Origin: a virus
Direction: 5' to 3' (one strand)
Virus record (IMG/VR): IMGVR_UViG_3300037087_000772
Coordinates: 64,001-110,119 of that record
DNA length: 46,119 nucleotides
The notes under the pieces are model-generated. The model was not told the origin of the DNA, made no database searches, and was given only the letters and a program-made list of their open reading frames with translations. How positions within the stretch are numbered: the stretch's first letter is position 1; each line of letters opens with the position of its first letter. The translations under genes were made by a program, and so were the position numbers. Positions 2,605-46,119 of the stretch are shown here, in pieces.

Positions 2605-2856
2605 TTATTTTATACGGGTAATTTTATAAGTTCTTTGGATATATTCATCTCCAATCTCAGCAAATTCTCCCCAATCAGTAATAGTTTCATCCCATTTATC
2701 ATCCAGAACGGTTTCATCTTTCAATTTTTCTTCTAATTCGGGTAATTCTTCCAAAGAATATTCATCGGTATATCCACGACCAGTTAAATCTTTTAAGAGA
2801 AATAATTTTTCTCCATCAATATCTTCATTTATAAAATCTTTATATCTCTTAATCAT
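2605..2856 (-). CDS. Small tagged protein, putative capsid cargo
   Basis: An 83-residue acidic protein starting MIKRYKDFINED, one of the clearest copies of the shared N-terminal tag (compare T4 IPIII MKTYQEFIAEA). The hydrophobic-x-E site INE at 9-11 would release a 72-residue acidic domain containing paired EEL/EEK segments. Last gene of a three-gene minus-strand run (4574 to 2605) with gaps of 4 and 16 nt. The payload is unrecognised; packaging into the prohead is inferred from the tag only. Confidence 0.75.
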   Translation of the reverse strand: MIKRYKDFINEDIDGEKLFLLKDLTGRGYTDEYSLEELPELEEKLKDETVLDDKWDETITDWGEFAEIGDEYIQRTYKITRIK

Positions 2857-2872
2857 TTTAATTATGTTATTT

Positions 2873-3559
2873 TTACAAATTTACACTGAGATAGCCATGT
2901 CCATATCCAACCTTTTTATTCCAATTTTCAATAGCTTTTCTGGCCTGTTCTTTAATTTTTGAATTTGTTAATAAATTCCTTCCCTCGTTTGTTATTGATC
3001 TGTTTTTTGCTAATAATCCTTTTTTAATTAATCTATCATAAAATTCATCTTGTAATTTTGGTCGTGCAAATGATTTCAAACTTTTTGAGGCGATTAAGAT
3101 TATCAATTCTTCATCAGTTATATCCTCAGATTTCGATGTATCTGGTAGCATCAATTCGGATTTTGGTCCAGTATGAATTATAACTCTTTGTGGATAAGAA
3201 CCATAAACAACAAGTATCATTCCCTCTGGAATTTCAAGAGTTCCACTTTTTTTCTGACCTTCAATATAACCTTGTGGTGAATCAGATTCCCATCCACTTC
3301 TTGTGACAATATTTCCAACGGGAACTGCATTATTATTGGTAAGTCTAAAAAATTGATAAGTTTCACGATCAGCATCATGCCACGGCATACCAATTGTTAC
3401 AGGCTTTCCAGATTGATCCAATCTATATTGTTGAATGTTCTTACCTGATATTTCTTTAGCCCAGTCACGAATTCCGTCTGGAATATTTTTTACCGATAAA
3501 AAAATATCACTTGAATAACTTTCCTTAATAAATTCGATAAAAGATTTTAAATTTTTCAT
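2873..3559 (-). CDS. Tagged protein, putative capsid cargo
   Basis: A 228-residue protein. A start 9 codons further upstream is open but overlaps the preceding gene. The ATG at 3559 gives MKNLKSFIEFIKES, nearly the same tag as the gene at 8515 (MKNLKTFIEFINEA), so I use it. Likely cut after IKE. The payload has a beta-rich middle (about 50-140, with GMILVVYGSYPQRVIIHTGP) and a helical C-terminal part (about 150-220) resembling a winged-helix arrangement (DEFYDRLIKKGLL, then SITNEGRNLL). Function unknown. Co-transcribed with the genes at 3564-4574 and 2605-2856. Confidence 0.7.
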   Translation of the reverse strand: MKNLKSFIEFIKESYSSDIFLSVKNIPDGIRDWAKEISGKNIQQYRLDQSGKPVTIGMPWHDADRETYQFFRLTNNNAVPVGNIVTRSGWESDSPQGYIEGQKKSGTLEIPEGMILVVYGSYPQRVIIHTGPKSELMLPDTSKSEDITDEELIILIASKSLKSFARPKLQDEFYDRLIKKGLLAKNRSITNEGRNLLTNSKIKEQARKAIENWNKKVGYGHGYLSVNL

Positions 3560-3563
3560 TTTT

Positions 3564-4574
3564 TCATTCCTCTTTTTTCTTTTCATTTGCTGGTTTGAAT
3601 CTCCATTTAAACCAATAATAATTGTTTTTCTCGATGTAATAGGTTTTATCTTTTATTTTTAACACAATGAAAGGATCATTATTTTGATCTTCGTTGTGTC
3701 CTAAGACTTCAACTATTTTCCCTTCTTTTAAAAAGAATTGTCTACCCATTTCATCTCGAACAGGATTATTGTCCTTCAAATTTATATAAAGAGCTGATTC
3801 TGGTTTAAACCATTTAACCAATTTTTTATACAAATAATTGTTCAATTTTAAAAAATACTCTCTATCAATATAAGGATAACGAGATTCATTCAATAATTCA
3901 GGACAGGTTAAGGCTGGTGGTTTATTCAAACCATTAAAATTTTTAAAAGCTCCGAAAAATTCTTCTTCATTAAATTCAAAAGACAGATAAACATCAAGTT
4001 TTAAAGATTCATTCTGAACCATCCTTAATATCTTCATATTTTTATAATTAACACTATCTTCAAGGAATATATCACTTCTTTTATTGAACCTCGGATCATT
4101 GAATAAATCTTTGGCCATTTTCTGAGACATCTGCATTAATTTATTAGAAGTTCCGGCTGAACGAGCATATTGATCAACATACGGTCTATTATCATCACTA
4201 TAAATAGATAAACTTGGATCTTGAGCAAATCCATAACCCGGACCAAATGGTGTTTGAACTTCTCCACCCATTAAGTATTGATTGAACTCAGATGATTCTA
4301 CTATAATAAAATCCATAAAATCTTCAAATTTTGTAATCATTTGTTCATCTATTTTTTCGAATTGAATCTGTTGATCTTTTAATTTTCCAAGTTGTGTAAG
4401 ATTAACGGTCTCAATATCACCAATTTTCTCCGCACTTCTCATATAACACAATCTTTTTAAAATAATAGACAATTGTTTCTTCTTAGCTTCTTCTGATTGT
4501 GGTGAACCAATACCACCACCATCCCATCCATTAGGATATCCTGTAATCTTTATTTTAAATGTTGTCTTACCCAT
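3564..4574 (-). CDS. Hypothetical protein with an internal tag-like segment
   Basis: A 336-residue protein. The frame is open to a GTG at 4607, but the ATG at 4574 (MGKTTFKIKITG) is preferred because a TATATA box lies between the two. No domain is recognised. It contains a glycine-rich early segment (GWDGGGIGS) and MITKFEDFMDFIIVES, which resembles the N-terminal tag but sits about 80 residues in. The C-terminal 70 residues (VLKIKDKTYYIEKNNYYWFKW) look like a small beta-domain. First gene of the minus-strand run leading into two tagged proteins and divergent from the tagged gene at 4644, so a virion-related role is plausible. Confidence 0.65.
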   Translation of the reverse strand: MGKTTFKIKITGYPNGWDGGGIGSPQSEEAKKKQLSIILKRLCYMRSAEKIGDIETVNLTQLGKLKDQQIQFEKIDEQMITKFEDFMDFIIVESSEFNQYLMGGEVQTPFGPGYGFAQDPSLSIYSDDNRPYVDQYARSAGTSNKLMQMSQKMAKDLFNDPRFNKRSDIFLEDSVNYKNMKILRMVQNESLKLDVYLSFEFNEEEFFGAFKNFNGLNKPPALTCPELLNESRYPYIDREYFLKLNNYLYKKLVKWFKPESALYINLKDNNPVRDEMGRQFFLKEGKIVEVLGHNEDQNNDPFIVLKIKDKTYYIEKNNYYWFKWRFKPANEKKKEE

Positions 4575-4643: not shown

Positions 4644-6533
4644 ATGATACAACTCAATAATTTAACACCATTTGAAGAATTCAAAAAAATGTATGAGGCT
4701 GTTAATCTTGGAACTGAGTTCAGTAATACAACAGGTCTAAAAGAATCTCTCCTTGGTAGAGGTATATTTGGTTTATTCAGAATGATTAAAAAAGGAATAA
4801 ACGCCGTAAGATTAGAATATTTTAAAAGAAGATTAGAAAATGAATATTTGGCCGGATTATTGAGATATTGTAAAACCAACAATATAGATTTAAAAAATCC
4901 ACAAGCACTGAGTGACGAGGGAAAGAATGTTGCTAAACAATCATCGGAAGTAGAACAACAGAGAGATCAGGAAATGAAAGAACTTTTAAATGATATTTTA
5001 TCTATCAAATTCGACACTCCAGATTATAAAAAGATTTTAACCGAAACAAAAAATGAAATTAACAAAAATATCACTGAAATTACATCATCTGGATATAAAT
5101 TAGATCAAAGTGATCAAGATTTAATTGAACAATTTAAAAAAGTAAATGAATTAATAGATAGTATTACAATTATTTGTGATAATTTTATATCCTTAAAAAC
5201 AGAATATAAAGAAGAACATATTACAAATATTATCAATTCAGTAAAGAAAATGAAAGTAGATGGATTGAATTACACGGCTTCTGGAAGTGAAAAAGCCCTA
5301 TTAGACACTCACAAAGCAGAACAAGCTGTTCAGAATTTATTGTCTGAATTAAATGCTGTTACTAAAACAACTGAAAGTATTCTTAATGAAAAAGTAGGGA
5401 ATAGTCCAGTTGGTATTGATTTTATTCTTGGTGATGAATTATCAACAGAGGGTGTTGGGGAATTTTTAAACAAACAAGGTGTTAATAATGTTAATGATAT
5501 AAATTTTGTACAGTTATCTAAAGTTTTTAATGATAAAATGAAAGAAAATGCCACTAAGCATGTGAATCAAAACGCCATTATGAGAGTTCAACATGGTGTT
5601 TCAGCTATAATATATCATAAAACTACAACCCCAGATGATAGAGGTATGAATCCGGGAACAGGTGGTGGGATAGATACAGCTCAACCAACTGCACTTTATA
5701 AACCATGGCAAATAAAAGTTCAAAAAATATTGGGAGAATTTAGTCCATTTTTAAATGTTACAGCGATTGATCCATTCAAATTAAATATGTCAAATTATAA
5801 TTTAAGTGAAGATCCCGGAAGTAAGAAACTTAAATCTGAAGATGAAAAGACAAAAGAGATGGATAGATTGTTCAAAATTTCAAAACTTGGACCAACAGTT
5901 GGTATTACCGAAGATTTGAAAAAATTCGGAATGATAAGATTATTTAGATCTGGTAAATTTTATGGACCTGTTTTTAAATTAGAAGAAACAAAAGGTCAAA
6001 GAGTTTACGAATATGTGGGGAGTGTGAACATAGATAATATTAATAAGGATTTAGAAACACTTAAAAAATTAGATGATCCTAATACACAAAAATATGAAAC
6101 TCCATTTGGATCTAAAACAAAAAACGGTCTTGTTCCTGAATTTTTATCAAAAATAATACATGAAAAACAGACAATGAACTCGAAAGATTTAGTCGGGGTT
6201 TATTTTATTTTTGAAAACATTATTTCTTCACCATCAAGTGGTGAACATAGAACAAATAAAGCTCGAATTTTCTTCCTTTATTTCAAACATGGTGCCGGAA
6301 AAACATTTACCAGTACAAATATTCCAGAATTTGAAATATATGGTTTAAATAAAGATGGAAGTAATATGATAAAAATTGATTTGACAAAATTAAATTCAAT
6401 TGAGCCATTTGAGGTCGGTGTGGGTCAAACTTTTGAATTTTCCGATGAATGTCCACTTAAAAAAGATTTCTCAACACAAATAAATAATGTTGGTGTAAAA
6501 TTCCTTGACTTATCAGGAGTTAGTTATAAATAA
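4644..6533 (+). CDS. Large tagged protein, putative internal virion protein
   Basis: A 629-residue protein starting at the ATG at 4644; the longer frame from 4596 overlaps the promoter. The N-terminus MIQLNNLTPFEEFKKMYEAV is a variant of the shared tag. The N-terminal 260 residues are strongly helical and coiled-coil-like, with a basic patch after GRGIFGLFRMIKKG. The C-terminal half is mixed alpha/beta with a glycine-rich loop (MNPGTGGGID). No enzymatic motif is seen. It is the largest tagged protein in the window and heads a plus-strand run with the genes at 6537 and 7025. A head-interior or ejection protein is possible but unproven. Confidence 0.7.
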   Translation: MIQLNNLTPFEEFKKMYEAVNLGTEFSNTTGLKESLLGRGIFGLFRMIKKGINAVRLEYFKRRLENEYLAGLLRYCKTNNIDLKNPQALSDEGKNVAKQSSEVEQQRDQEMKELLNDILSIKFDTPDYKKILTETKNEINKNITEITSSGYKLDQSDQDLIEQFKKVNELIDSITIICDNFISLKTEYKEEHITNIINSVKKMKVDGLNYTASGSEKALLDTHKAEQAVQNLLSELNAVTKTTESILNEKVGNSPVGIDFILGDELSTEGVGEFLNKQGVNNVNDINFVQLSKVFNDKMKENATKHVNQNAIMRVQHGVSAIIYHKTTTPDDRGMNPGTGGGIDTAQPTALYKPWQIKVQKILGEFSPFLNVTAIDPFKLNMSNYNLSEDPGSKKLKSEDEKTKEMDRLFKISKLGPTVGITEDLKKFGMIRLFRSGKFYGPVFKLEETKGQRVYEYVGSVNIDNINKDLETLKKLDDPNTQKYETPFGSKTKNGLVPEFLSKIIHEKQTMNSKDLVGVYFIFENIISSPSSGEHRTNKARIFFLYFKHGAGKTFTSTNIPEFEIYGLNKDGSNMIKIDLTKLNSIEPFEVGVGQTFEFSDECPLKKDFSTQINNVGVKFLDLSGVSYK

Positions 6534-6536
6534 ATA

Positions 6537-7028
6537 ATGATAAATATGATATTAGATTATGACAATTTTTTAAACGAGATAAACACTAATCAACAACCAG
6601 TAGCAGCTAAACCAGCACCAGTTGCCAAACCAGCCACACCAGTTGTTGCTAAACCTGTGTCGACTACTAAACCAGTTGTTGCTAAACCTGTTTCTAAATC
6701 CGTAGAACAACCTAAACCCGTAGAACAACCTAAACCCGTAGAACAACCTAAACCCGTAGAACAACCTAAACCAGTTTCGAAACCTGTAAATCAACCTAAA
6801 CCTGTCACATCCAATCAACAACCGAAACCGACTATAAATAATACAGCTGACGTAGAAAAAAAGATTTTAACACATATAACGAACTTATTCGATACCATTA
6901 AAAAGAAAATATCTGGGAAAAAAGAACCCACAACTCCTGAACAAACTAAGGAACAACCAAAAGAGCAACCGACTGAACAAACTAAACAACAACCAACTGA
7001 ACAAAAACAAGAAACACCAATATTATGA
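6537..7028 (+). CDS. Tagged proline-rich repeat protein
   Basis: A 163-residue protein. The N-terminus MINMILDYDNFLNE carries the tag, and an alternative ATG at 6546 would give MILDYDNFLNE. Residues 15-105 are low-complexity Ala/Pro/Lys/Gln, including four perfect VEQPKP units. A short helix follows (KKILTHITNLFDTIKKKISG), then a second low-complexity tail of EQTKEQP-type units. This looks like an extended, disordered spacer around one amphipathic helix. It starts 3 nt after the previous stop and its stop overlaps the next start (ATGA). A disordered, highly charged packaged protein would suit a head-interior role. Confidence 0.75.
   Translation: MINMILDYDNFLNEINTNQQPVAAKPAPVAKPATPVVAKPVSTTKPVVAKPVSKSVEQPKPVEQPKPVEQPKPVEQPKPVSKPVNQPKPVTSNQQPKPTINNTADVEKKILTHITNLFDTIKKKISGKKEPTTPEQTKEQPKEQPTEQTKQQPTEQKQETPIL
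6702..6773 (+). repeat. 18-bp tandem repeat, 4 copies, in coding sequence
   Basis: Four head-to-tail copies of GTAGAACAACCTAAACCC (the last ends in A), encoding VEQPKP four times. The copies are almost identical at DNA level, suggesting recent slippage expansion. Confidence 0.9.
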
Positions 7029-7408
7029 TAACGAAATTTCAAGATTTTCTCAATGAGGATAATGATATTCAAAAAAGAATATTGGATAGAATAAATAGGG
7101 AATTTGATAAGATAAGGTCAAAAATGCCACCAAGAGAAGAACAATCAAGTCCACCAGAAAAGATAGAACCTGAGAAAAATAAAGAGGGGAAAAAGGTCTC
7201 AAAAGCAAAAGAACCAAAACTCAAACCAGAAGAATCAAGATTTGATGATAAAAGATTAGATGATGCCTTTATTGCCCTGAAAGCTATGGGATATACCGAA
7301 AAGGCAATTATTGAATTTTTGAATAGGATAGAATTAGAAACGACTGATACAGCCGATAGTATTGTTGAGTATGGTGTTAGTAACGCTAAAAAGGTTCATT
7401 TATTCTAA
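7025..7408 (+). CDS. Tagged protein with RuvA-C/UBA-like C-terminal helices
   Basis: A 127-residue protein starting MITKFQDFLNEDND (tag, LNE cleavage-like site). Residues 35-75 form a lysine/glutamate/proline-rich linker. The C-terminal about 45 residues (RLDDAFIALKAMGYTEKAI, then helices to the end) have the spacing of a three-helix UBA-like or RuvA domain III module, in which a GY-containing loop follows the first helix. The start overlaps the previous stop, so the two are probably translationally coupled. The tag is clear; the domain call is tentative. Confidence 0.7.
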   Translation: MITKFQDFLNEDNDIQKRILDRINREFDKIRSKMPPREEQSSPPEKIEPEKNKEGKKVSKAKEPKLKPEESRFDDKRLDDAFIALKAMGYTEKAIIEFLNRIELETTDTADSIVEYGVSNAKKVHLF

Positions 7409-7465: not shown

Positions 7466-7720
7466 ATGAACTCAGAATTAAAAAGAAGGTTTTTCCTTCA
7501 GAAAATTGAAGATTTCAAATCAGATAATTGTCAACCATATCCGACAGTTATTTGTGAAATGGAGCGATCTAATATTATTGAAATAATAAGAAAAAATGTT
7601 CTTTTTTCAACTATAATGAAACCGTGTACTTCATCTAATTTTAATCCAGAAGTAAAAGAAGTATTAGGAAAAGCATCAAATGACTTTGGTGATTTATATA
7701 TTTTAGTATATCCGAATTAA
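7466..7720 (+). CDS. Small hypothetical protein, likely early gene
   Basis: An 84-residue protein. A longer frame begins at 7445, but that ATG touches the -7 box, so the ATG at 7466 (MNSELKRRFFLQKIEDF) is preferred. No domain is recognised. It is one of few plus-strand genes here with a host-type rather than TATATA promoter, suggesting expression soon after infection. Its 3' end overlaps the end of the convergent gene by 4 nt. Confidence 0.6.
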   Translation: MNSELKRRFFLQKIEDFKSDNCQPYPTVICEMERSNIIEIIRKNVLFSTIMKPCTSSNFNPEVKEVLGKASNDFGDLYILVYPN

Positions 7721-8454
7721 TCCTCAAATTTTTCGATCCCAATTACATTGTATTTTCCATCCTCTTTCAGAGTAATTTCATTTTCATCTGGAAAATATAA
7801 GTTATTTATAATAGTTTCATTTACATCTATTTGATCTTTTGTTGTTTCTATTTCAACAATGAATCCGTTGTGATCTTCATTCGCCATTATTGAATTCAGA
7901 AAATCATGATCTATATCTCCTTTTCTTGTAACATAATGTACACCCAATTGATGCTGTTTAATTTTACTTTCATCTTCCACATCAAGATATCTGAATAAGT
8001 GTAACTGACTTGGAATATTCTTGAATCCTATTGGATAATTTAATTCTGTTTTATCCAAACAATTCTGAATACTTTGTTCGGCTGTCCAACCCACTTGACT
8101 ACTATCGGTTAAAGTTGCCATTATTTTTTCCAAATCCAGTTTGGTTATATTACCGAAAGATTTTACAGTATGTTTTTTTGGTTCTTTTAACAATATAGGA
8201 ACATCACTTTTTTTGATTATGAAATCATATTCAAAATAATCGAATTTTCTATATTTTATCTTATTCAGTTTGAATTTGGTTCTCAATATTCCGGCATTTT
8301 CCCTACCATTTGTGAATATCAAAACTTCATCATTCTTTAATCTATTTAAATATTTTCCCCAATTCTTTTTTACATCACTATAAGAATAAATAGTAAATCC
8401 ATCTTTCTCTTTTGCTTCATTAATAAAATTTTCAAATAGTAATAAATATTTCAT
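7717..8454 (-). CDS. Tagged ADP-ribosyltransferase-like protein (Alt-like candidate)
   Basis: A 245-residue protein starting MKYLLLFENFINEAKEKD, with the tag and an INE site. The C-terminal 100 residues fit the R-S-E class of mono-ADP-ribosyltransferases: R155 in a strand (LHLFRYLDV), a GVHYVT segment (171-176) at the usual S-T-S position, NGFIVEIETT, then E224-N-E226 followed by ITLKEDGKYNVIGI, like the E-x-E strand and its partner. The central S is replaced by V/T. In T4, Alt is a tagged, packaged ADP-ribosyltransferase that modifies host RNA polymerase, so this would be a functional analogue. The family assignment is from residue pattern only. Residues 20-140 are unrecognised. Confidence 0.5.
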   Translation of the reverse strand: MKYLLLFENFINEAKEKDGFTIYSYSDVKKNWGKYLNRLKNDEVLIFTNGRENAGILRTKFKLNKIKYRKFDYFEYDFIIKKSDVPILLKEPKKHTVKSFGNITKLDLEKIMATLTDSSQVGWTAEQSIQNCLDKTELNYPIGFKNIPSQLHLFRYLDVEDESKIKQHQLGVHYVTRKGDIDHDFLNSIMANEDHNGFIVEIETTKDQIDVNETIINNLYFPDENEITLKEDGKYNVIGIEKFED

Positions 8455-8514: not shown

Positions 8515-8937
8515 ATGAAAAATCTAAAAACATTCATTGAATTTATAAATGAAGCTGATGCGAAAACTGCTTTAAATGTAATAGGTAGTAAAGAACAGCA
8601 GAAAACAGATGTCAATCAAGATAGAAAAACTCCTGAGGGTGAGAAAGAACAAAAATTTCAACAGAAAACTAAAAATCAGGCACTCACCAGAACAGATGAA
8701 TTAGAAAAAGCAGCTAAAGACATTGATACCAGACAACAGACAGCCAACAAAAGAATGGATGATATAACATTAAAACAAGATTTATTACCAGATGATCCAA
8801 ATAAAAGGAAAGAGTTTTTAGATTCCACAAAGAATGATCTAAAAGATGTTGAGGGAGAACTTAATAACGCGGAACAACAAAGAAAATCACTTCAAAAACA
8901 AAAAGATAGGATCAAAAATAACTTTTTAAAGAAGTAA
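8515..8937 (+). CDS. Tagged coiled-coil protein, putative capsid cargo or core protein
   Basis: A 140-residue protein. The frame is open from 8479 but the promoter lies inside that extension, so the ATG at 8515 (MKNLKTFIEFINEAD) is chosen. The tag nearly duplicates that of the gene at 2873-3559. After the INE site the protein is highly charged, Gln/Lys/Glu-rich and predicted helical, with a long coiled coil (about 60-140). This composition resembles scaffold-core or internal head proteins. No enzymatic motif is seen. It is followed by its own promoter-led neighbour at 8983. Confidence 0.75.
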   Translation: MKNLKTFIEFINEADAKTALNVIGSKEQQKTDVNQDRKTPEGEKEQKFQQKTKNQALTRTDELEKAAKDIDTRQQTANKRMDDITLKQDLLPDDPNKRKEFLDSTKNDLKDVEGELNNAEQQRKSLQKQKDRIKNNFLKK

Positions 8938-28641: not shown

Positions 28642-30108
28642 TTACCACCTACGAAGTTTTCCCCACACTACCATTAACTTAGTTTTGATACTTGGGTTCA
28701 ATTCACGATTTAACCACAGTTTAGCACCCTTTAAAGTGGTAAATTCGAGGTTATCCTGAGCTTCATCTGCCTTCTTCAAGATTTCACCGAACTTCAATCC
28801 CGGCTTCATCCCGATTTCAATCAGATGGCGACCCATCAGAATGGACTTCCTCTGTTCAGTTGTAACATGGAGTGTCTTTGCGAGATTCCATACTTCCTCG
28901 ATTTCAGTCCTAACTTTAAGAATCCTTTCTTCATCGACATTATCCCTACCCAGAGCATCAGCCTCAATAACAAAGAGTAAATCCTTGATAGTAGACGGAT
29001 GAATGTTCTTAGAAAGTCTCAGAAGAGCTTTCTTCCTACTACTCAGTCCGTTGATTGAAAAGATGTTGACATGAGCCAAATGGAACTTAATCAGTTTTAC
29101 AATCTGTTCGACCAACACTGGTTTAATTCCAATCCTGTTAAGGATTTCTTCAGCCATCACAGCACCTAATCCCTCATGACCCTTACTTGTAACACAAATT
29201 CTACCACCCTTTTCTTCATGTTCGGTAGTTTGTGGTTTTGCGATATCATGAAGTAACATGGTAAACATGAACTTGGCTCTTTCATCCTCGACAATTCCCT
29301 CTCTTTCACAAATACTCAACATCCTTTTCATGGTCAGTTGGGTATGCTTTTCAACATCACCCTCTGGGTGCCAAATCGGGTCTTGTTCAGTATCTTTCAG
29401 AAGTCCAAGTTCAGGAATAACGACCATAGAACCACTTTCACGAAGAAAATCAAAAATCAGTTCAGGGTGTTTTCCCTTAATTGCCCATTTCATGAATTCT
29501 TCGGATAACCTTTCTTTCGGAAGATGTTTCAGTTCTTCAGACATTTCCCTCATGACCTCAAAAGTTTCAGGTGCCACAGTAAATCCAAAACGGGATTGAA
29601 ACTGTAAACCCCTCAGAACCCTAAGAGAATCTTCCTTAAACTTATCAGAAGTATGACGAATGATACCATTCTGTAAATCTTCCAGACCGTTAAAGAAGTC
29701 AAAAAGGATATTGTTAATTGGGTCGAAACCCAGAGCGTTCCATGTAAAATCCCTACGGAGAGCGGCTTCTTCTTTGGTCATTGGTTCGAAACTAACTTCG
29801 AAATCCTTATGACCAACACCAAGACGATTTTCCTTACGAGGTACGGAAAAATCACATTCCAAATTATCTTTTTTGAATTTCAAAATACCGAAACTCTTAC
29901 CTACGGAATCAACCTTTCCAAGACGGGAAAGAATCTTATCAAGTTGTTCGACAGTACATCCATGCACTTCAATATCAATATCTTTCGGATCAATTTCCAT
30001 AAATTTATCACGGACACATCCCCCGATCAATACGGGTTCAAATCCATTTTTACGGAGTTCCTGAAGAATCGAAATTAATATGTTATCGGTGAATGTGATG
30101 TTCGTCAT
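28642..30108 (-). CDS. cca: CCA tRNA nucleotidyltransferase with HD domain
   Basis: A 488-residue class II CCA-adding enzyme. The nucleotidyltransferase head has GGCVRD (29-34) and D43-I-D45 for metal binding, followed by the RRDFTWNAL motif and an ADDGID-like NGLEDLQNG segment. The tRNA-binding helices include SLRVLRGLQF. A C-terminal HD phosphohydrolase domain (HPEGDVEKHTQL, HDIAKP, KGHEGLG) makes it a bacterial multifunctional form. It adds or repairs the 3' CCA of tRNAs, perhaps repairing tRNAs damaged during infection. Base composition is richer in GC than its neighbours. Led by a host-type promoter, suggesting early expression. Confidence 0.95.
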   Translation of the reverse strand: MTNITFTDNILISILQELRKNGFEPVLIGGCVRDKFMEIDPKDIDIEVHGCTVEQLDKILSRLGKVDSVGKSFGILKFKKDNLECDFSVPRKENRLGVGHKDFEVSFEPMTKEEAALRRDFTWNALGFDPINNILFDFFNGLEDLQNGIIRHTSDKFKEDSLRVLRGLQFQSRFGFTVAPETFEVMREMSEELKHLPKERLSEEFMKWAIKGKHPELIFDFLRESGSMVVIPELGLLKDTEQDPIWHPEGDVEKHTQLTMKRMLSICEREGIVEDERAKFMFTMLLHDIAKPQTTEHEEKGGRICVTSKGHEGLGAVMAEEILNRIGIKPVLVEQIVKLIKFHLAHVNIFSINGLSSRKKALLRLSKNIHPSTIKDLLFVIEADALGRDNVDEERILKVRTEIEEVWNLAKTLHVTTEQRKSILMGRHLIEIGMKPGLKFGEILKKADEAQDNLEFTTLKGAKLWLNRELNPSIKTKLMVVWGKLRRW

Positions 30109-30198: not shown

Positions 30199-31146
30199 AT
30201 GATTATTACTGAATTCAACAAATTTAACAAAAGGAATGTGGTGAGCTTCGATTTTGATGGAGTGCTTCATTTAAGTATGATTCCCGGCACGATCCATCCT
30301 GCTGATTGGATCAATTATAAGACATGGATACCGAGTAAAAAATTACACGGAATTTTAAAAAAAGAACATCAGAATGGTAATAAAATAATCGTAATTAGTG
30401 CTCGTGATAAAAAATTTTATGATTTTAATAAACCAGATTTCAATTGGGACTCCCCACCATTAGACATGAAAAAGATCATGATGAAATTTATGAAATTATA
30501 TCAATTACCAGTGGATGATATAATTTTAACTGACAATGGTCCAAAAAAGCAAATTTTAATTGATATGAAGGCCATAAGACATTATGATGATAATATTGAT
30601 ATGGAACGAGAATTAAAAGATACTAATATTGAATTTGTATATGTTTATAATGATAAAATAGTAAGAAGAATTAAAAATAAAGGTAATAATATTTCTGAGG
30701 AAAAAATTATTGATAGTGAAACGATTGGGGAAATTCAAAAGCATATTGCTGATGGAACGAAAAATGACAAACCAATATTAACACCTGACGGTAAAAATGT
30801 GTATGTGATTCGAGCTGTTCAAAAAGGAGAATTTGATCATGTTATGAATAAAGGTGGGGTATCTGGAACATTCTGGGGAACTGAAATAAGTTATCGTAGT
30901 AATTATTATTTTATTAAACCAGATTCAGGATATGATAAAAGTTGGTCTTTTAGCCTTGACTTCAATCCAACCATTAGTAATTGGCCAGATGAACCTCGTA
31001 TTGAAAAACCAAATCCAAATTATAGACTACCAAACAAATTAATAGATCATTTTCAGGAAGTAGGTAGAAGAAGTGCCGTATCCTTAGAGGATATTTCCTA
31101 TATCTTAGATTCAAAAGGAGAAATTGTATATGATAAAGGAATTTAA
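30199..31146 (+). CDS. HAD-family phosphatase with unknown C-terminal domain, possibly tagged
   Basis: A 315-residue protein. The N-terminal HAD domain has motif I VVSFDFDGVLH (D18, D20), motif II IIVISARD and motif IV-like ILTDNGPKKQILIDMKAIRHYDDN. This suggests a phosphatase of the polynucleotide or nucleotidase kind; no kinase P-loop is present. The first residues MIITEFNKFNKRN resemble a weak version of the packaging tag. The C-terminal 145 residues are a separate, unrecognised beta-rich domain. It overlaps the tagged ADP-ribosyltransferase-like gene after it by 17 nt, so all three genes form one operon. Confidence 0.7.
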   Translation: MIITEFNKFNKRNVVSFDFDGVLHLSMIPGTIHPADWINYKTWIPSKKLHGILKKEHQNGNKIIVISARDKKFYDFNKPDFNWDSPPLDMKKIMMKFMKLYQLPVDDIILTDNGPKKQILIDMKAIRHYDDNIDMERELKDTNIEFVYVYNDKIVRRIKNKGNNISEEKIIDSETIGEIQKHIADGTKNDKPILTPDGKNVYVIRAVQKGEFDHVMNKGGVSGTFWGTEISYRSNYYFIKPDSGYDKSWSFSLDFNPTISNWPDEPRIEKPNPNYRLPNKLIDHFQEVGRRSAVSLEDISYILDSKGEIVYDKGI

Positions 31147-31729
31147 AATATTTGAAAGTAAACAGATTGGTGTGTTATATCATTTCACTACTTTGAGTAG
31201 CCTTTTCGACATGATACTTCGAGCAAGATATGTAACAAGTGAGGAAAACAAAATATTTCTCAAATTCGGATATAAAACAAATATTTCTCTCAGTAGAAAT
31301 TTTAATATGAAATCATCAGAATTAAAAATTGAAAAACAATGTGTAAGAATAGTCATCAATGGAGATAAATTATCAAATCATTATAAAATTGAACCTTTTT
31401 CAGATCCAATATATGATAAAACTCGTTCAGAAAGAGAAGAAAGAATTATGAGAGGTAGAAGAGATGATGTCGCCGATATTACAAATTATATCATTCAAAT
31501 TGATGTTTTAAAAAATCCAGTATTAGCTGATCTTTATCCTTGGAAGCCTATTAATTCATACACTTTTTCAGATCCGAAAAATACTCAATTAAAAATAAGT
31601 GTATCCGAAACAGATGAAATCATTAGATTATATGAAATGTATTTGAAAGAAACCCTAAGATTTTTCGGTTTTTGTAAATTCAACTTTAAAATTAATGTAG
31701 TTGATAAAATGAATCCTGTTCGACTATGA
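31130..31729 (+). CDS. Tagged ADP-ribosyltransferase-like protein, copy 1
   Basis: A 199-residue protein from the ATG at 31130 (MIKEFKIFESKQ). After the tag comes VLYHFTTLSSLFDMIL with H18, then ISLSRN (S53, S55, R56), VRIVINGDKLSNHYKIEPF and EREERIM (E101, E103, E104). The H ... SxSR ... E order and the YHFT start recall DarT/PARP-like ADP-ribosyltransferases and an uncharacterised phage family. The next gene aligns with it at all these points. Inferred as a packaged effector that may modify host macromolecules; activity is not established. Confidence 0.5.
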   Translation: MIKEFKIFESKQIGVLYHFTTLSSLFDMILRARYVTSEENKIFLKFGYKTNISLSRNFNMKSSELKIEKQCVRIVINGDKLSNHYKIEPFSDPIYDKTRSEREERIMRGRRDDVADITNYIIQIDVLKNPVLADLYPWKPINSYTFSDPKNTQLKISVSETDEIIRLYEMYLKETLRFFGFCKFNFKINVVDKMNPVRL

Positions 31730-32673
31730 TAACAGATTTTAAAATATTCGAAAGTAAAAATATACAGAATCTTTATCATATATTGGATACTGAAAAATTA
31801 TACTATGTCTTAAAGAATAACGAAATCACATCTTATAAATTTCACTATATATCAACCACGAGAAATAAAATGATGAATGGGTATACTGGTGATAACTCAA
31901 CTTCAATTTTTAAACTTGAATTGGATGGTCCGAAATTGACAGACAATTATAAAATGAAATCATTTCAAGACAGTGGGTGGGAACTTGGTACAGATAATGA
32001 AAGAACTCATTTTTATCATCAGGAATGGGAAGAACAAATACAAACCAATAAAATTAAAAACGCAAAAAAGTACATTGTCAAAATAATATTACTGAAAAAC
32101 AGGATAGATAGATTGAAAGATAGTTCATGGTTCGAAAATCATTTTAGTGAAAGAGGTAGAAAATCAAAATGGATAAATTTACCTGATATATTGAAAGACA
32201 TCATCGACAAATATAAAATAGAACTCTGGGTTCAGGATGGTTCAGTAATCAAAAAAGACGATGAATATGTAAATAGTATCATCAATTATGATGTCAGAAA
32301 AAAATATCATGGATTTGCTTTATATTGGAGGGGATATATTACCCAGAAAGATAGATTTGGTTATTTGGAAAAAACTTTACCATTGGATAAAAGAAATCCA
32401 AAAATAGAAAAACTGGTAGTCGGATATACATATGATAATCTCTGGGTGAAATCAAAATTAGATATATCAAAGAATCTTATAAAAAACAGACCAAAAATAT
32501 TCAAAGCGGAAGCATCATTAAACATCTTCAATTTCGAATATGATGAAGATGATATTCTCAAAAAAGAGGGTGATTTTATTCTTTTAAAACAAGGTAAATT
32601 AAAAGAAATAGATCCAATTCAGAAATATGATTACGCTTGGGATAGAGAAATGGTACTCGATACAGAATTTTAA
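31726..32673 (+). CDS. Tagged ADP-ribosyltransferase-like protein, copy 2
   Basis: A 315-residue paralogue of the gene before it. The tag MITDFKIFESKN is followed by NLYHILDTEKLYYVL (H18), ISTTRN (S43, R46), LELDGPKLTDNYKMKSF and EWEEQI (E100, E102, E103). The matching positions keep the same order and spacing. It carries an extra C-terminal region of about 150 residues, which is beta-rich and unrecognised. The ATG overlaps the preceding stop (ATGA). Probably a diversified packaged effector. Confidence 0.5.
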   Translation: MITDFKIFESKNIQNLYHILDTEKLYYVLKNNEITSYKFHYISTTRNKMMNGYTGDNSTSIFKLELDGPKLTDNYKMKSFQDSGWELGTDNERTHFYHQEWEEQIQTNKIKNAKKYIVKIILLKNRIDRLKDSSWFENHFSERGRKSKWINLPDILKDIIDKYKIELWVQDGSVIKKDDEYVNSIINYDVRKKYHGFALYWRGYITQKDRFGYLEKTLPLDKRNPKIEKLVVGYTYDNLWVKSKLDISKNLIKNRPKIFKAEASLNIFNFEYDEDDILKKEGDFILLKQGKLKEIDPIQKYDYAWDREMVLDTEF

Positions 32674-34286: not shown

Positions 34287-35105
34287 TTAATCATTATCAA
34301 GATTAGAATTACCATGACTATCAACACTTGGTTGTACTCTTTCATCATCTTTTATACCATATCTATTTGGTCTCCCTTCTGATTTTATTGATGAATATTT
34401 ATCAGGATATAAATATTTAACAAAATCTTCATCTTTAAGGGTATCTACTGGTATTTTAGGATATTCATATCCATATGTATCATTTGCGAAATATTTCTTC
34501 TCCTTATGATTAATATCAATAACACACAAACCTAAGTCGTTATACTTATAATTAAATAGCATTAATTTTTCTTTTTTGCCTCTTATATAGAAAGTTATGG
34601 TTATACCATTTACTCCCTCATTCCTGACGAGCGGAGATACTTCCGATGAACCGACAATATTTTTTAATCTTTGTCCTAATTCCTGAGCATATGTAATAAT
34701 TTCACTATCTTTCATTTCTACAAATTTCTCAAATGTTTTTGATTCATATCCTCTATCCACTACATTGATTAATGTATCTGGACTTCCAGCCTTACCAGAT
34801 GGATCAAATATTTCTGGTTCTACATCATATTCAGAACCAAGATATAAAGTCATAAAAATTCTGAATCCCGTTATATGTTCGATTAATTCATCAACAACTT
34901 CTTCTGGGGTATCTGTTACATTACTCATAAGATATTCTTTCAATTCTTCATTGGTAGAATCCTCGTCATTATTAACAATCTCCATCAACATATCCCAATC
35001 AGCTAAATTAGAATATTTCTTTTTAAATTCAGTAACCCATTGTAAAAATTCCTCTTTTTTTGGAATATCACTTCTTTCATTGATGAAATCTTTAAATCTT
35101 TTCAT
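34287..35105 (-). CDS. Tagged protein, putative capsid cargo
   Basis: A 272-residue protein starting MKRFKDFINERSD, among the clearest tag copies (INE site). The payload has a helical acidic part (about 20-85), a segment with GSEYDVEPEIFDPSGKAGSP, and a beta-rich C-terminal domain (ITITFYIRGKKEKLMLFNYK). No known family. Last of four consecutive tagged genes on the minus strand (36223 to 34287) with gaps of 26, 3 and 9 nt. Confidence 0.75.
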   Translation of the reverse strand: MKRFKDFINERSDIPKKEEFLQWVTEFKKKYSNLADWDMLMEIVNNDEDSTNEELKEYLMSNVTDTPEEVVDELIEHITGFRIFMTLYLGSEYDVEPEIFDPSGKAGSPDTLINVVDRGYESKTFEKFVEMKDSEIITYAQELGQRLKNIVGSSEVSPLVRNEGVNGITITFYIRGKKEKLMLFNYKYNDLGLCVIDINHKEKKYFANDTYGYEYPKIPVDTLKDEDFVKYLYPDKYSSIKSEGRPNRYGIKDDERVQPSVDSHGNSNLDND

Positions 35106-35114: not shown

Positions 35115-35435
35115 TTATTTTTTTGGTCCATTCAATACAAAATCAGAAAACTTGGTAAAAACTTTTGGCTTATTATTTTTATTACCTTTTTTACTTTTCT
35201 TACTTTTTTTTCTATCTAATTTATCAAAACGATCACCCATATCATAAGCTGCTCTATCCCCACTTCCGACAGTACCAGATCCACCTTGCCAAACTGAACC
35301 CGGAAGTGAACCGACTTGAGCTGTTGTTATATTACCCATTCCATTGATATTGGCTGTAGCAAAAGCTGTACCACCTCCACCGTCTCCATCTTCATTTAAC
35401 TTTATGTATTCACTATATTTTATAATTTTTTCCAT
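35115..35435 (-). CDS. Small protein with tag-like ends and NGMGN motif
   Basis: A 106-residue protein. N-terminus MEKIIKYSEYIKLNEDGDG is a tag variant. A Gly/Ala/Thr-rich middle contains GTAFATANINGMGNITTAQ, then GSVWQGGSGTVGSGD. A lysine-rich run (KKSKKSKKGNK) precedes a second tag-like C-terminus FTKFSDFVLNG. The GTA ... NGMGNI motif recurs in the protein at 37699. It may be a processed head peptide. Function unknown. Confidence 0.65.
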   Translation of the reverse strand: MEKIIKYSEYIKLNEDGDGGGGTAFATANINGMGNITTAQVGSLPGSVWQGGSGTVGSGDRAAYDMGDRFDKLDRKKSKKSKKGNKNNKPKVFTKFSDFVLNGPKK

Positions 35436-35438: not shown

Positions 35439-35666
35439 TTACTTTTTAATTTCTTCAACACTGAAATCGTGTAAATAATTTGTTCTTTTAAATTCACTTG
35501 CCTCTCCTCTTGTTTTAAATTGTTTTGCATCTTTCTTAGACTTTGAAGTAATAATATGATCTTTCATCATAATTTCTTGAAAATATGTATTATCTTTATC
35601 TTGCAAAACAAAAACTAATTTATCTTTCTTTTCTGTGAATTCTTCGAATAATTTGATGTATTTCAT
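35439..35666 (-). CDS. Small tagged protein
   Basis: A 75-residue protein from the ATG at 35666 (MKYIKLFEEFTEKKD), preferred because it restores the tag and avoids overlap with the upstream gene. The rest is a compact beta-alpha unit (KLVFVLQDKDNTYFQEIMMK) ending in a short helix. Unrecognised. Confidence 0.65.
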   Translation of the reverse strand: MKYIKLFEEFTEKKDKLVFVLQDKDNTYFQEIMMKDHIITSKSKKDAKQFKTRGEASEFKRTNYLHDFSVEEIKK

Positions 35667-35692: not shown

Positions 35693-36223
35693 TTATCTCC
35701 ATGTTGTTTGATTTTCCCAATATTTTTTATTTAATTTGGTTATTGATTTTTTTTCTTCACCAGATTTACCAAAATTTATTACTTTCACTTTATCACCTTC
35801 TCTTGCTAAAACACGATATTTATGTTTACCTTTTCCCTCATATTTCTTCGGATGATTAAACCCCGGAAAAGTTTCATTCCTATATTTTAAACCATGAGCC
35901 AAACGCTCAACATCTACACTCTCTCCCTCTGTTAATAGAGATTCTTCCATTTCTTCACCACCTTCCATATATTCATGTCCATCTAATTCGAAACCATGTT
36001 TTTTTGCGTATATATCCGCGTGATAATAAACATGATCAATCCCACTACCGTTTCCTATTAATTCTTCTACGCTGTCATATTCTGGTAGTTGACCATTTTC
36101 TTTACACCATAAATCATAATGATATAACCAATGTTCCAAGATGTTATCAGGTATTAGACCATAATCTACCTCGTAGTAATCACTCTCATTAATAAATTCT
36201 TCATATTTCTTAATTCTTTTCAT
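35693..36223 (-). CDS. Tagged protein with DUF5754-like C-terminus
   Basis: A 176-residue protein starting MKRIKKYEEFINESDYYE, with tag and INE site. The middle is acidic (EEMEESLLTEGESVD), and contains further E-containing sites that a prohead protease could cut. The C-terminal 60 residues (GFNHPKKYEGKGKHKYRVL, then VKVINFGKSGEE and KYWENQTTW) resemble the small DUF5754-type domain of phages and giant viruses (IrFG and YW elements). First gene of the four-gene tagged run. Confidence 0.7.
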   Translation of the reverse strand: MKRIKKYEEFINESDYYEVDYGLIPDNILEHWLYHYDLWCKENGQLPEYDSVEELIGNGSGIDHVYYHADIYAKKHGFELDGHEYMEGGEEMEESLLTEGESVDVERLAHGLKYRNETFPGFNHPKKYEGKGKHKYRVLAREGDKVKVINFGKSGEEKKSITKLNKKYWENQTTWR

Positions 36224-36302: not shown

Positions 36303-36878
36303 ATGAAAAAAGGATATGTTAAACTTTTCGAGGAATTTATTGATGCCGACTATGATATGCAGAGAATTATAAAAGAATTGGAAAAAAGAGCCAATCATTG
36401 GTTCGAAAAAGGTGAACTATCAAAAGATGCCCAATTGGTTGATATTAAACAAACAGAAACGGCAATCTCCACAAGAAAAAGTTTAGTGGTCGAATTCAAT
36501 GATAATGAATTTTATTATCAAGTGATTATAAGGGTAAATATAGAACACATGGATAAATGTGAATTAATAATTAAAAAATACAATCCAAATGCAAAAGATG
36601 GTGATACTTTAAAATTAGAAGATCAATTAACATTAACTGGTGAAGATAGTATTGATGTGAATGATATAAAAGGAAAATTCATACTTGATAAGATATCGGA
36701 ATTAAATGGAAAAAGTAAAAATCCAGATGAAAATGATATAGATATTCCAAAAGAACCAGAACCACCAGAACAACCAGCTCCAGAAACACCACCTGAAGGT
36801 GAAACACCACCTCAATCACAAGCACCACCACAAACTCAGGGGGGTCCACCTGCACAAGAGGCCCCACCATCATTATAA
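36303..36878 (+). CDS. Tagged protein with Pro/Gln-rich tail
   Basis: A 191-residue protein starting MKKGYVKLFEEFIDAD (tag variant). An alpha/beta domain (about 20-135) is followed by a Pro/Glu/Gln-rich low-complexity tail (EPPEQPAPETPPEGETPPQ). The combination of tag and disordered tail matches the gene at 6537. No known domain. Confidence 0.65.
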   Translation: MKKGYVKLFEEFIDADYDMQRIIKELEKRANHWFEKGELSKDAQLVDIKQTETAISTRKSLVVEFNDNEFYYQVIIRVNIEHMDKCELIIKKYNPNAKDGDTLKLEDQLTLTGEDSIDVNDIKGKFILDKISELNGKSKNPDENDIDIPKEPEPPEQPAPETPPEGETPPQSQAPPQTQGGPPAQEAPPSL

Positions 36879-37698: not shown

Positions 37699-37899
37699 AT
37701 GGATAATATAAATTATAAAGATAATGTAGAAGAAGTAATAAAAGAAATGGAAGATAATGCAAAAAACATCGAAAGTTTCAAAGTAATTACAGAAATTATT
37801 TCAGTCCAAACACCAAAAGTAGAAAATTCTGAGAATGGAACTGCTTATGTTGATAATAATTTAAATGGTATGGGTAACATCGTGAGTCCTCAACCTTAA
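37699..37899 (+). CDS. Small protein with NGMGN motif
   Basis: A 66-residue acidic protein. Its C-terminus GTAYVDNNLNGMGNIVSPQ matches GTAFATANINGMGNITTAQ in the tagged protein at 35115-35435. The N-terminal part is helical. No known family. Probably part of the same structural set. Confidence 0.6.
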   Translation: MDNINYKDNVEEVIKEMEDNAKNIESFKVITEIISVQTPKVENSENGTAYVDNNLNGMGNIVSPQP

Positions 37900-44178: not shown

Positions 44179-44230
44179 ATGATAACTCGTGAGTAAAATG
44201 TCTTTCTTTTAAAAACCAAACTCCATTTCC

Positions 44231-44242
44231 AAGATATATAAG
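44231..44242 (+). promoter_or_regulatory. TATATA-type promoter of RHH pair A copy 2
   Basis: AAGATATATAAG, 15 nt before the ATG at 44258, inside the segment conserved with 21039-21085. Confidence 0.5.
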
Positions 44243-44257
44243 AAAAAACCTAATCCG

Positions 44258-44410
44258 ATGGGTAGACCAAAAATAACAAACAAGAAAAAAAGCTTATCAA
44301 TATCAGTTAATATTGAATTGGATGAAATCTTAGATAAGATTTGTAAAGAGAAGAATGTGAATAAATCAAAGTACATCGAATACTTGATTAAAAAAGAAAT
44401 GAACAAATAA
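44258..44410 (+). CDS. Ribbon-helix-helix regulator, pair A copy 2
   Basis: A 50-residue protein, MGRPKITNKKKSLSISVNIE then DEILDKICKEKNVNKSKYIE, near-identical to the protein at 20883-21038; the C-terminus differs. Its stop is 1 nt before the membrane-protein gene. The DNA identity covers promoter and ribbon/operator-contact coding region, and falls off towards the 3' end. Confidence 0.75.
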   Translation: MGRPKITNKKKSLSISVNIELDEILDKICKEKNVNKSKYIEYLIKKEMNK

Positions 44411-44411
44411 C

Positions 44412-45131
44412 ATGACATTAACTATCATCTCTATCATATTATCGATTGTTTTATTTTTTATTAGCTTATCAATATCAATTCTATTATTTATTATTCGTCC
44501 TATTTTTGATGAATTAACAAAAATTTCCAGAAGTTATAATAATTTTTTTGAAGATGAATTTCATCATCCTCTTTCCTTCGATTATAAAAATGGAGGAAAA
44601 ATAACAAATATTTATCAAAAAATAACAATAACCAACCACAATTTTGATAGACCTTTAGAAAAAATAGAATACATAGATAAATTGAAATTGGGTTTATTTT
44701 ACAGTGAAGAAGAAAGAAAAAGTAGTAAAATAATTGAAGATTTGAATACCATAAGAAGAAGATTAGAATTAGAAATAGTGTGGCTTAAATATGATGAAGA
44801 ATCTAATGAAATTTTAAAAAGATATAAAAGTATTGATTTTGAAATTAAAAAACTCCAATATACTGCATCTAAAAAAGATAGAAATTTAGCTTATAATGAA
44901 ATAGATGAAATTTACAATAAAAAAAAAGAAGATGAATTTTTCATTTTGAATAATGATTGTAGATTTACTGGACTCATTTCTGATTGTGAAGGAAATATAA
45001 AACATTCTGAAAGAAAATTCGAATTCGAATTTAAAAGATTAACAAGAATTGATGTCTTATTTGATAAGTATCCCAAACTTAAATTATTTTGGCTTTTTAT
45101 GGTATATCCAAATTCGAAATATTTTGACTAA
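44412..45131 (+). CDS. Membrane-anchored coiled-coil protein coupled to an RHH regulator
   Basis: A 239-residue protein with a long N-terminal membrane helix (MTLTIISIILSIVLFFISLS and onward), then a soluble part with helical, charged coiled coil (about 100-175). Paired with an RHH gene as at 20431-21038. Function unknown; membrane proteins under small repressors are often exclusion or immunity factors. Confidence 0.65.
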   Translation: MTLTIISIILSIVLFFISLSISILLFIIRPIFDELTKISRSYNNFFEDEFHHPLSFDYKNGGKITNIYQKITITNHNFDRPLEKIEYIDKLKLGLFYSEEERKSSKIIEDLNTIRRRLELEIVWLKYDEESNEILKRYKSIDFEIKKLQYTASKKDRNLAYNEIDEIYNKKKEDEFFILNNDCRFTGLISDCEGNIKHSERKFEFEFKRLTRIDVLFDKYPKLKLFWLFMVYPNSKYFD

Positions 45132-45142
45132 AATAACTATTT

Positions 45143-45805
45143 TTATTCTTCTTCAAAAGATTCTAAAGCATTTAATTTTGTTGAAAGTTCATCATATTCA
45201 CCAGAAAGTTTGGTCGCTTCATCTGTATCCTTATCCATATGACGTAATAATTCGTCAATTTCTAAAAGTCTATTCCAAATTTCTTCCTTGGTTTCGGGAT
45301 TCAATTTATCTTCATTCAATTTTGTAAATTCATTGAATGACATTATTTTTCTTTTTTCTGTTATTTTTTCACCCTGAGGAACACTTTCATCTTTTGAGGG
45401 GGTTTCCTTTTTAGGTTTTTCCTCTCTTTTCACATCTTTATCTATTTTCACATTGTAAAATTCCCCCCCGAATATTTTCCCACTTTCAATTCGGCCATGA
45501 TGAAATTTTCCATCATAAATATGTCCTGCTTTGAATATACCATTGTACCAAGTACCATTATACCAAACTCCATCTTCCCAAGTTCCGTATTTCCAAACCC
45601 CATCACGAAAAACACCATATTTCCATGTTCCATTAAAAAATGTACCTGAATTGAAAATAAAATGTCGTTGAGTTATTTCGATCCTAACTTCTTCTACCTC
45701 ACAATCTAAAAACCATTGGAATCCTTCTTTAATAAGAATTTCATCAATCTTATATTGTTCAGTATAAGTTTTTTTATTATATTTTAGTTCTTTGTATCTT
45801 TTCAT
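45143..45805 (-). CDS. GX[FWI]XX pentapeptide solenoid protein with internal tag
   Basis: A 220-residue protein. Residues 54-118 are 13 uninterrupted pentapeptides, each starting with G and having an aromatic or aliphatic third residue (GTWKY, GVFRD, GVWKY, GTWED, GVWYN and so on). They should form a small beta-solenoid distinct from the standard A(D/N)Lxx pentapeptide class and related to MORN-like repeats. After a charged linker, M155 starts IMSFNEFTKLNEDKLN, a tag-like segment, followed by a coiled coil. M155 could be an internal start for a tagged 66-residue product. It overlaps the next tagged gene upstream by 1 nt. Confidence 0.75.
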   Translation of the reverse strand: MKRYKELKYNKKTYTEQYKIDEILIKEGFQWFLDCEVEEVRIEITQRHFIFNSGTFFNGTWKYGVFRDGVWKYGTWEDGVWYNGTWYNGIFKAGHIYDGKFHHGRIESGKIFGGEFYNVKIDKDVKREEKPKKETPSKDESVPQGEKITEKRKIMSFNEFTKLNEDKLNPETKEEIWNRLLEIDELLRHMDKDTDEATKLSGEYDELSTKLNALESFEEE

Positions 45806-46119
45806 TATATTCCAAAATAATGTTCTATTTGATCTTTTATATCTTCGATATCACCTTCTATTCCATGTTTATCATCATTTGGAAAACTAAGTACATCACC
45901 AGTTGGGAAATCAAAAATTTTATATTCCCAATCCCCTATATTATCATTTACATCGAATTGATATTCTGTTTCATCGATAGATATTACACCGATCCATCCA
46001 CCTAATCCAGCATTTTGTAAGTTCACAATTTTTACACCGTGTATCTTTTCTAACTCCTGAATTTCATCTTTTGGACTATATCCAGATTGCTCATTTACAA
46101 ATTCTTTGAAAGTTTTCAT
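45805..46119 (-). CDS. Tagged small protein at right edge
   Basis: A 104-residue protein whose ATG is the last codon of the window. N-terminus MKTFKEFVNEQSG is the closest match here to T4 IPIII MKTYQEFIAEA. The payload is acidic with a beta-hairpin (GVISIDETEYQFDV) and a C-terminal helix. No recognised family. Its stop overlaps the start of the solenoid gene. Confidence 0.8.
   Translation of the reverse strand: MKTFKEFVNEQSGYSPKDEIQELEKIHGVKIVNLQNAGLGGWIGVISIDETEYQFDVNDNIGDWEYKIFDFPTGDVLSFPNDDKHGIEGDIEDIKDQIEHYFGI

Follow-up and report, generated by a model that had tools for sequence, protein, structure and literature searches.

Why do unrelated proteins encoded along one stretch of virus DNA begin with the same short signature? 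The stretch, which we call the window, is AT-rich, 46,119 nucleotides long and corresponds to bases 64001-110119 of a 110,119-base IMG/VR virus record (IMGVR_UViG_3300037087_000772). A sequence-only reading had quoted 12 such N-termini, likened them to the tag that directs T4 internal proteins into the prohead, and placed their genes in clusters at 2.6-9, 30-32.7, 34.3-36.9 and 45-46 kb. All 12 stand at the starts of open reading frames (ORFs) in the window, which confirms the signature as real, and the cluster positions are correct. We put the probability at about 0.7 that the signature is a tag that targets proteins to the capsid by acting through the scaffold core. The motif and its enrichment, the unrelated cargo, the head genes, the scaffold repeat, the hybrid proteins and the tagged and untagged homologues can all be read directly from the sequences.

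The contig is most likely a fragment of a Mahaphage-like megaphage because of protein similarity and of the gene order that it shares with the megaphage LR756501. At the protein level its closest phages belong to the Mahaphage clade of megaphages, with genomes of 634-735 kb, as judged by the portal and by a protease-scaffold protein described below. The portal is 73% identical to that of LR756501 over residues 1-511, and for the protease-scaffold protein the identity is 54% over the full length (41-52% in matched parts for LR756502, LR745206 and LR756504). Of 174 called ORFs of the contig, 54 match LR756501 (735,411 bases; E 1e-5), mostly collinear with both ends of that record. LR756501 is the nearest complete relative and was read whole, the other megaphages in part. 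Genomes of Mahaphage sizes are the largest complete phages, with predicted Bacteroidetes hosts, according to the available parts of Al-Shayeb et al. (PMC7162821). Searched by megablast against 50,697 phage records as two overlapping segments (1-25000 and 22001-46119), the window gave no match, and it contains no tRNA and no Rfam match.

According to the accessible sections of a review of Black's work on T4 (PMC9026906), the first 10 residues of internal protein IPIII suffice for packaging, with residues 4 and 7 accounting for most of targeting and residues 8 and 10 for processing. T4 IPII and IPIII start MKTYQEFIAEA, and IPI starts MKTFKEF. The main form of the signature in the window, [FY]xx[FY][ILVTM]xE (class 1), has the spacing of T4 positions 4, 7, 8 and 10, the residues mapped by mutation, and the protein encoded at 45805..46119 (MKTFKEFVNEQ) is identical to T4 IPI in its first seven residues. 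The contig also encodes a T4-type portal, a Gp23 capsid protein and an S77-like protease. The T4-like reading is thus supported, and the sequences point to a T4-type capsid targeting sequence (CTS); in the T4 literature available in part to us, recognition of the CTS is described solely as an interaction with the core.

We looked for class 1 in the first 25 residues of each ORF, with internal 25-residue segments, overlapped ORFs and other phages as controls. All denominators are approximate because ORFs were called, stretch by stretch, as the longest little-overlapping frames of at least 60 codons. A second pattern, [FY]x[ILVMTS][FY]E (class 2), was added after seeing tags shaped MIKKFKIFES or MKHLKTYKIFES and replaced a looser version that gave many false positives. 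In the window, class 1 occurred in 9/75 ORFs versus 1/469 internal segments and 0/38 overlapped ORFs, and the two classes together in 11/75 (14.7%) versus 3/469 (p 4.5e-8); by eye, 16-18 proteins are tagged. Across the whole contig the counts were 14/176 ORFs versus 9/1125 internal segments for class 1 and 17/176 versus 13/1125 for both classes, and there are seven more tag-like starts beyond the window.

Because the class-1 pattern was drawn from window tags, its unbiased tests are other genomes. In LR756501, class 1 was found well above chance, in 61 of 983 ORFs versus 50 of 7754 internal segments (0.6%; p 1e-29) and 1 of 581 overlapped ORFs; among the 61 are matches that look false by eye (66516-66752, which has homologues with a similar start, and 563220-563525). 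In LR745206 (200 kb) it was found in 8/293 versus 13/2058 (p 2.5e-3). Both classes together reached 86/983 (8.7%) versus 81/7754 (1.0%) in LR756501 and 21/338 versus 36/2512 in LR745206 (241 kb), where class 2 is not independent, its pattern having been shaped after seeing the lists of these two genomes. Neither class 1 nor both classes gave any match in 50-kb samples of phiKZ (0/64 ORFs) and of the Bacteroides phage crAss001 (0/48). T4 (140 kb) gave 3/205 for class 1, namely IPII, IPIII and one match in gene 51, and 5/205 for both classes, which is not significant. The first aromatic lies 3-4 residues past the nearest upstream Met in 38 of the 61 class-1 tags of LR756501. Tagged genes cluster, with 25 adjacent pairs versus 7.4 expected in LR756501 and 5 versus 1.5 in our contig. 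Counts of a DNA pattern (forward plus reverse versus control), unfiltered for frame, limited to ATGA starts and used just as support, were 18/0 for our contig, 48/3 for LR756501, 34/17 for LR756502, 30/8 for LR745206, 28/14 for LR756504, 34/5 for LR756500 and 6/1 for T4.

The tag pattern recurs inside a head protein. Outside the window, the contig encodes the Gp23 capsid protein (Pfam, 1.4e-27), the gp20 portal (Portal_T4, 1.5e-64) and an 818-residue ORF (L006:2698-5154; record bases 43698-46154) in which prohead protease and scaffold are fused. The protease part matches phrog_207 (8e-25) and falls just below the cut-off for Pfam S77; protease-scaffold single ORFs are also present in six relatives and five megaphage records. 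Residues 332-458 of this ORF hold the starts of ten units spaced exactly 14 residues apart (for example IKYSEYIAEN and IRYGEYVAEQ), nine of them found by pattern and the tenth (IRYSEMLAEN) added. This 14-residue repeat, of about 9-14 units, contains Y-x-E-Y-[IV]-A-E, which is the tag pattern. It is found in eight IMG/VR loci (two identical to ours, six at 71-79% identity) and in LR756501, LR756502, LR745206 and LR756504, and by eye in degenerate form in LR756500. By internal class-1 matches the scaffold ranks first of 983 proteins in LR756501 (14 of 65 matches) and first of 174 in our contig (9 of 15); as these are repeats of one unit, they amount to one event per scaffold.

Hybrid proteins join the two elements. 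In LR745206 (L041:10435-10686), MNYEDYIAE runs into three more units in a frame that can start MNYEDYIAESLEKNISYSEYISENLNLQSAYCDYLCENLNKNIRYSDYLKD, and blastp matches this protein to scaffolds down to about 1e-14. A 76-residue protein of LR756501 (716346-716576; L033:16346-16576) has two scaffold-like units, reading MSAYDEYLREEMNKTRAYSEYVAS before a C-terminal membrane span, and might tether the scaffold core to the membrane; LR756501 619760-620383 has three scaffold units, internally placed. In the window, MEKIIKYSEYIKLNE of the protein at 35115..35435 is the top N-terminal match of a position weight matrix (PWM) made from scaffold units alone. After its tag this protein runs on ...NINGMGNITTAQVGSLPGSVWQGGSGTVGSGD, resembling the capsid protein arm past the probable cut HINE/N, and it matches the LR756501 capsid protein at 39% over 61 residues (E 4.7e-7). 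The letters NGMGN, in the arm past the predicted capsid protein cut, are common to window 35115-35435, window 37699-37899 and L006:764-2593.

Behind the tags stand unrelated proteins, as the sequence-only reading had claimed. With 20 residues removed, the 25 tagged proteins of our contig (picked by eye) fell into 25 BLAST families, although direct comparison shows those at 31130 and 31726 to be paralogues despite their separate families. Treated likewise, 59 of the 61 class-1 proteins of LR756501 formed 47 families, the largest with 10 members. This ten-member tagged paralogue family (e.g. L019:12965-16169 and L028:2191-5043) has lengths of 333-504 residues in the nine members not cut at a record end. 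Pfam found ART-PolyVal in two tagged proteins of our contig, one above the curated cut-off (3e-15), together with SprT-like (4e-8) and DnaJ (8e-20) domains; tagged proteins of LR756501 include PPK2 (1e-76), a methyltransferase (6e-19), DeoC (1.5e-17) and others.

The tag also comes and goes between homologues. RNA_lig_T4_1 has a 14-residue tag prefix in LR745206 that is absent in LR756501; the PolyA_pol of LR756501 bears a class-2 tag, that of LR745206 has a looser tag-like start, and the one at window 28642-30108 is untagged; DnaJ is tagged in our contig and untagged in LR756501 and LR745206. Among 983 homologous pairs across phages, scored with a slightly looser pattern, both members were tagged in 32, one in 65 and none in 886; these are pairs, not events, and many come from one paralogue family. 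Codon identity among the 61 LR756501 tags was 0.581 versus 0.585 expected from codon usage, so the likeness of the tags is kept at the protein level.

The tagged proteins of the window are listed below, with a slash at the putative cut after glutamate. For five of the 12 quoted signatures the start is an ATG that lies within the longest ORF (2873-3559, 6546-7028, 8515-8937, 31130-31729 and 35439-35666). The weaker variants mentioned in the sequence-only reading are borne out at 3564-4340, 4644-6533, 30199-31146, 35115-35435 and 36303-36878, and possibly at 45143-45343.

2605..2856, minus strand: tagged protein of 83 residues, MIKRYKDFINE/D, matching the class-1 pattern.
2873..3559, minus strand: tagged protein of 228 residues, MKNLKSFIEFIKE/S, class 1.
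3564..4340, minus strand: tagged protein with the weaker variant MITKFEDFMDFIIVES, starting inside a longer ORF; the homologue at LR756501 30031-30846 (54% identity) begins MITKFNNYLKES, which supports the internal start.
4644..6533, plus strand: variant tag MIQLNNLTPFEEFKKMYEA, outside the pattern matches; the LR756501 homologue begins MDLKNITPFEEFKKILEA.
6546..7028, plus strand: tagged protein MILDYDNFLNE/I, then P/K/Q-rich repeats, class 1.
7025..7408, plus strand: tagged protein MITKFQDFLNE/D, class 1.
7717..8454, minus strand: tagged protein of 245 residues, MKYLLLFENFINE/A, class 1.
8515..8937, plus strand: tagged protein MKNLKTFIEFINE/A with a charged body, class 1.
30199..31146, plus strand: weak tag-like start MIITEFNKFNKRN, then a stretch weakly like phage polynucleotide kinase (phrog_505, E 0.005).
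31130..31729, plus strand: class-2 tag MIKEFKIFE/SK; paralogue of 31726..32673 (E 5e-12).
31726..32673, plus strand: class-2 tag MITDFKIFE/SK; the LR756504 homologue begins MKYIKIFENFN.
34287..35105, minus strand: tagged protein of 272 residues, MKRFKDFINE/R, class 1.
35115..35435, minus strand: tag MEKIIKYSEYIKLNE, then a capsid-arm-like stretch (NGMGNI..GSVWQGGSGTVGSGD) matching the LR756501 capsid protein.
35439..35666, minus strand: variant tag MKYIKLFEEFTEK, not a match to the class-1 pattern.
35693..36223, minus strand: tagged protein MKRIKKYEEFINE/S, class 1, with a C-terminal domain of phrog_7595/9979.
36303..36878, plus strand: variant tag MKKGYVKLFEEFIDADY, not a match to the class-1 pattern; the LR756501 homologue begins MKMFEEFMQADY.
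45143..45343, minus strand: possible tagged protein MSFNEFTKLNED begun at an internal start; alternatively, 45143-45805 carries it as a C-terminal extension, one that is missing in the LR756501 homologue.
45805..46119, minus strand: tagged protein MKTFKEFVNE/Q, class 1, with its start codon at the contig end.

A search of viral contigs for relatives of 7717-8454, 31726-32673 and 34287-35105 confirmed none, one of INPHARED with 31130, 31726 and 7717 gave one weak match, and one of the PDB with 31726 and 7717 gave nothing convincing; 7717..8454 has no relative in the collections searched. An ADP-ribosyltransferase (ART)-like fold for 7717, 31130 and 31726, guessed from short motifs, was unsupported and set aside.

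From these patterns we infer binding of the tag to the scaffold core, cleavage, packaging and injection, as follows. In the Mahaphage-like lineage, the tag would in effect be one detached unit of the head scaffold. A tagged protein would offer aromatic-xx-aromatic-[ILV]-x-E and so join the scaffold core during prohead assembly. The tag ends in what appears to be a processing site ([ILVTM]xE by definition in class 1, [ILVMTS]-[FY]-E in class 2), and a gp21-like protease would cut it after the glutamate, as it would the scaffold and probably the capsid protein (HINE/N). The freed cargo would then remain in the head with the DNA and enter the next host. That cargo would include ADP-ribosyltransferase-like, SprT-like and J-domain proteins in our contig, and RNA ligase, poly(A)/CCA polymerase, PPK2 and methyltransferase in its relatives. 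An idea that class-2 proteins are targeted yet left uncut was dropped, since most class-2 tags retain a hydrophobic-x-E triplet two places earlier.

The alternative that survives best, which we judge unlikely, is that capsid targeting is real and that the likeness to the scaffold reflects a shared protease substrate ([IL]-x-E), not mimicry of the scaffold. In its favor, tags of LR756501 most often have I, N, E ahead of the cut, which is nearer the capsid site (HINE in our contig, MNE in LR756501) than the scaffold's IAE, and the comparisons of scaffold and tag by PWM are weak. However, two aromatics three apart lie upstream of the cleavage triplet and serve targeting, not processing, in T4 (PMC9026906, available sections), and in the hybrids a tag-like start is continued by scaffold units in the 14-residue period.

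The details of those comparisons are among the points that weigh against capsid targeting through the scaffold core. The scaffold PWM enriches N-termini weakly (8/173 versus 19/828 internal at score 4), and with the tag PWM scaffold units make up 6 of the 30 best internal sites in LR756501 and 3 of the 30 best in our contig, where all three rank low. Tags favor F as the second aromatic, N before E and K two upstream, whereas scaffold units favor Y, A and I. T4 gp22 has many [ILV]xE sites but by eye no such repeat, and class 1 does not cover T4 Alt or IPI. Tags are scarce near head genes: for both classes LR756502 (42 kb) gave 4/57, LR756504 1/49 and LR756500 0/38, none significant, and class 1 in the loci of six relatives was not above the internal rate (3/136 versus 50/1305), a rate that is high because the scaffold fills the internal count. 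Three of the 61 tagged LR756501 proteins look membrane-spanning (102/922 of the untagged), which packaging alone does not explain; a possibility is that they fix the core to the membrane during its assembly. Some of the cargo, DeoC and PPK2 for example, does not look like an obvious early weapon, and AlphaFold models were too poor to use (mean predicted local distance difference test scores of 29 and 40).

That the tag sorts proteins to a destination other than the head, such as a replication compartment, the membrane or a chaperone, we regard as improbable. Some tagged proteins are indeed enzymes of RNA repair or metabolism or have membrane spans, but the residue spacing is the same as in the T4 capsid signal, the tag matches both the scaffold repeat and the protease site, and class-1 tags are absent from the phiKZ and crAss001 samples. 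A recent spread of the tags by DNA duplication of a 5' segment, with no present function, is very improbable: tagged genes cluster and one 10-member paralogue family is tagged, yet the codon identity, being at the level of codon usage, disfavors it, and tags are retained in diverged homologues. Chance or composition, by which an abundance of K, F, Y, I, N and E in low-GC phage proteins would often make them look tag-like, has a negligible probability, being excluded by the overlapped ORFs (1/581), by the other phages (0/48 in crAss001) and by internal segments, whose two-class rate of about 1% per 25 residues in LR756501 compares with N-terminal rates of 8.7% there and 14.7% in the window.

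Several known systems invite comparison with capsid targeting through the scaffold core. T4 IPI, IPII, IPIII and Alt similarly have a short N-terminal signal (in IPII and IPIII, aromatics three apart and then [IL]xE) on unrelated cargo, with a T4-type portal, capsid protein and protease in one genome. From what is available of two papers (PMC12373910, PMC9026906), T4 has three internal proteins plus Alt, and at least 10 internal proteins have been found over T-even relatives by their targeting signal. By contrast, in the Mahaphage-like phages inspection by eye gives 16-18 tagged proteins in 46 kb, and the patterns give 61-86 in the 735-kb relative; their scaffold, which repeats the tag pattern, forms one polypeptide with the protease, and a second tag class is common. 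Giant phage heads of the phiKZ/SPN3US type contain many internal proteins, several cut by a prohead protease, much as is proposed here. The SPN3US N-terminal propeptides have 111-254 residues, except two of 20-24, in the portion available of one report (PMC10052503), whereas our tags have about 10-16, unlike the mostly >100 residues of that type, and the phiKZ sample gave 0/64. Polyvalent proteins and head-packaged ARTs of large phages likewise have ART domains suspected to be injected; unlike them, the short ART protein of our contig bears its own tag and is not fused to a head protein (compare the available part of PMC9503650).

A second motif accompanies the tags in LR756501. DPYGEE occurs in 88 of 983 proteins (L019-L033), 36 of 102 within 14 residues of the C-terminus, and DPYGEE.W has 103 six-frame copies in 46 different 18-base spellings. 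DPYGEE is present in 15/61 class-1, 11/19 class-2-like and 62/903 other proteins (Fisher 3e-5, class 1 versus other). DPYGEE.W is absent from our contig and from the LR745206, LR756502, LR756504, T4, phiKZ and crAss001 samples, and in the literature searched the letters DPYGEE turned up in one paper, on yeast peptides. We offer only tentatively the wider proposal that the CTS is a free-standing scaffold unit by origin and function, that in the largest phages some 60-90 different proteins per genome form a portable proteome delivered at infection, and that DPYGEE.W is a further sorting signal in the 735-kb phage.

Several other genes of the contig stood out. What we take to be an M16-like peptidase (HLIEH; L003:13425-14531) and an IF3-like protein (L003:14944-15468), both named from motifs, sit in the head block and are conserved in LR756501. 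Window 23412-25319 encodes a presumably DnaK-like protein, 70% identical in LR756501; the J-domain protein on the same contig is tagged. A 753-residue protein (window 1-441 plus L008:180-2441), which from its motifs we assume to be a hybrid sensor kinase with receiver domains, is 53% identical to LR756501 over the kinase part. Proteins with WYNGTWYNG repeats (window 45143-45805, L003:8961-10724) are presumably MORN-like.

Internal proteins of the T4 type, with the sequence that targets them, are well established. Neither 'internal protein' nor 'virion' occurs in the main text of the paper describing the Mahaphage clade (PMC7162821), and we found no report of capsid targeting in Mahaphages in the literature searched, which mostly excludes subscription journals and preprints. 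Within that literature, and as far as our searches show, what is new is the presence of tens of tagged ORFs in one Mahaphage genome, a repeat-bearing protease-scaffold fusion, class 2, and pairs of tagged and untagged enzymes. A scaffold built of the tag pattern would be a direct answer to how the T4-type targeting sequence is recognized. If the tags work, the N-terminus alone would reveal a large part of what uncultured megaphages pack into their virions and point, among their numerous unassigned genes, to those acting in the first minutes of infection. If so, the payload would greatly exceed T4's and rank with the largest that phages carry, and laboratory phage work would gain many new packaging signals from it. 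These results suggest that giant phages of this kind may deliver a large, ready-made set of proteins to the bacteria that they infect.

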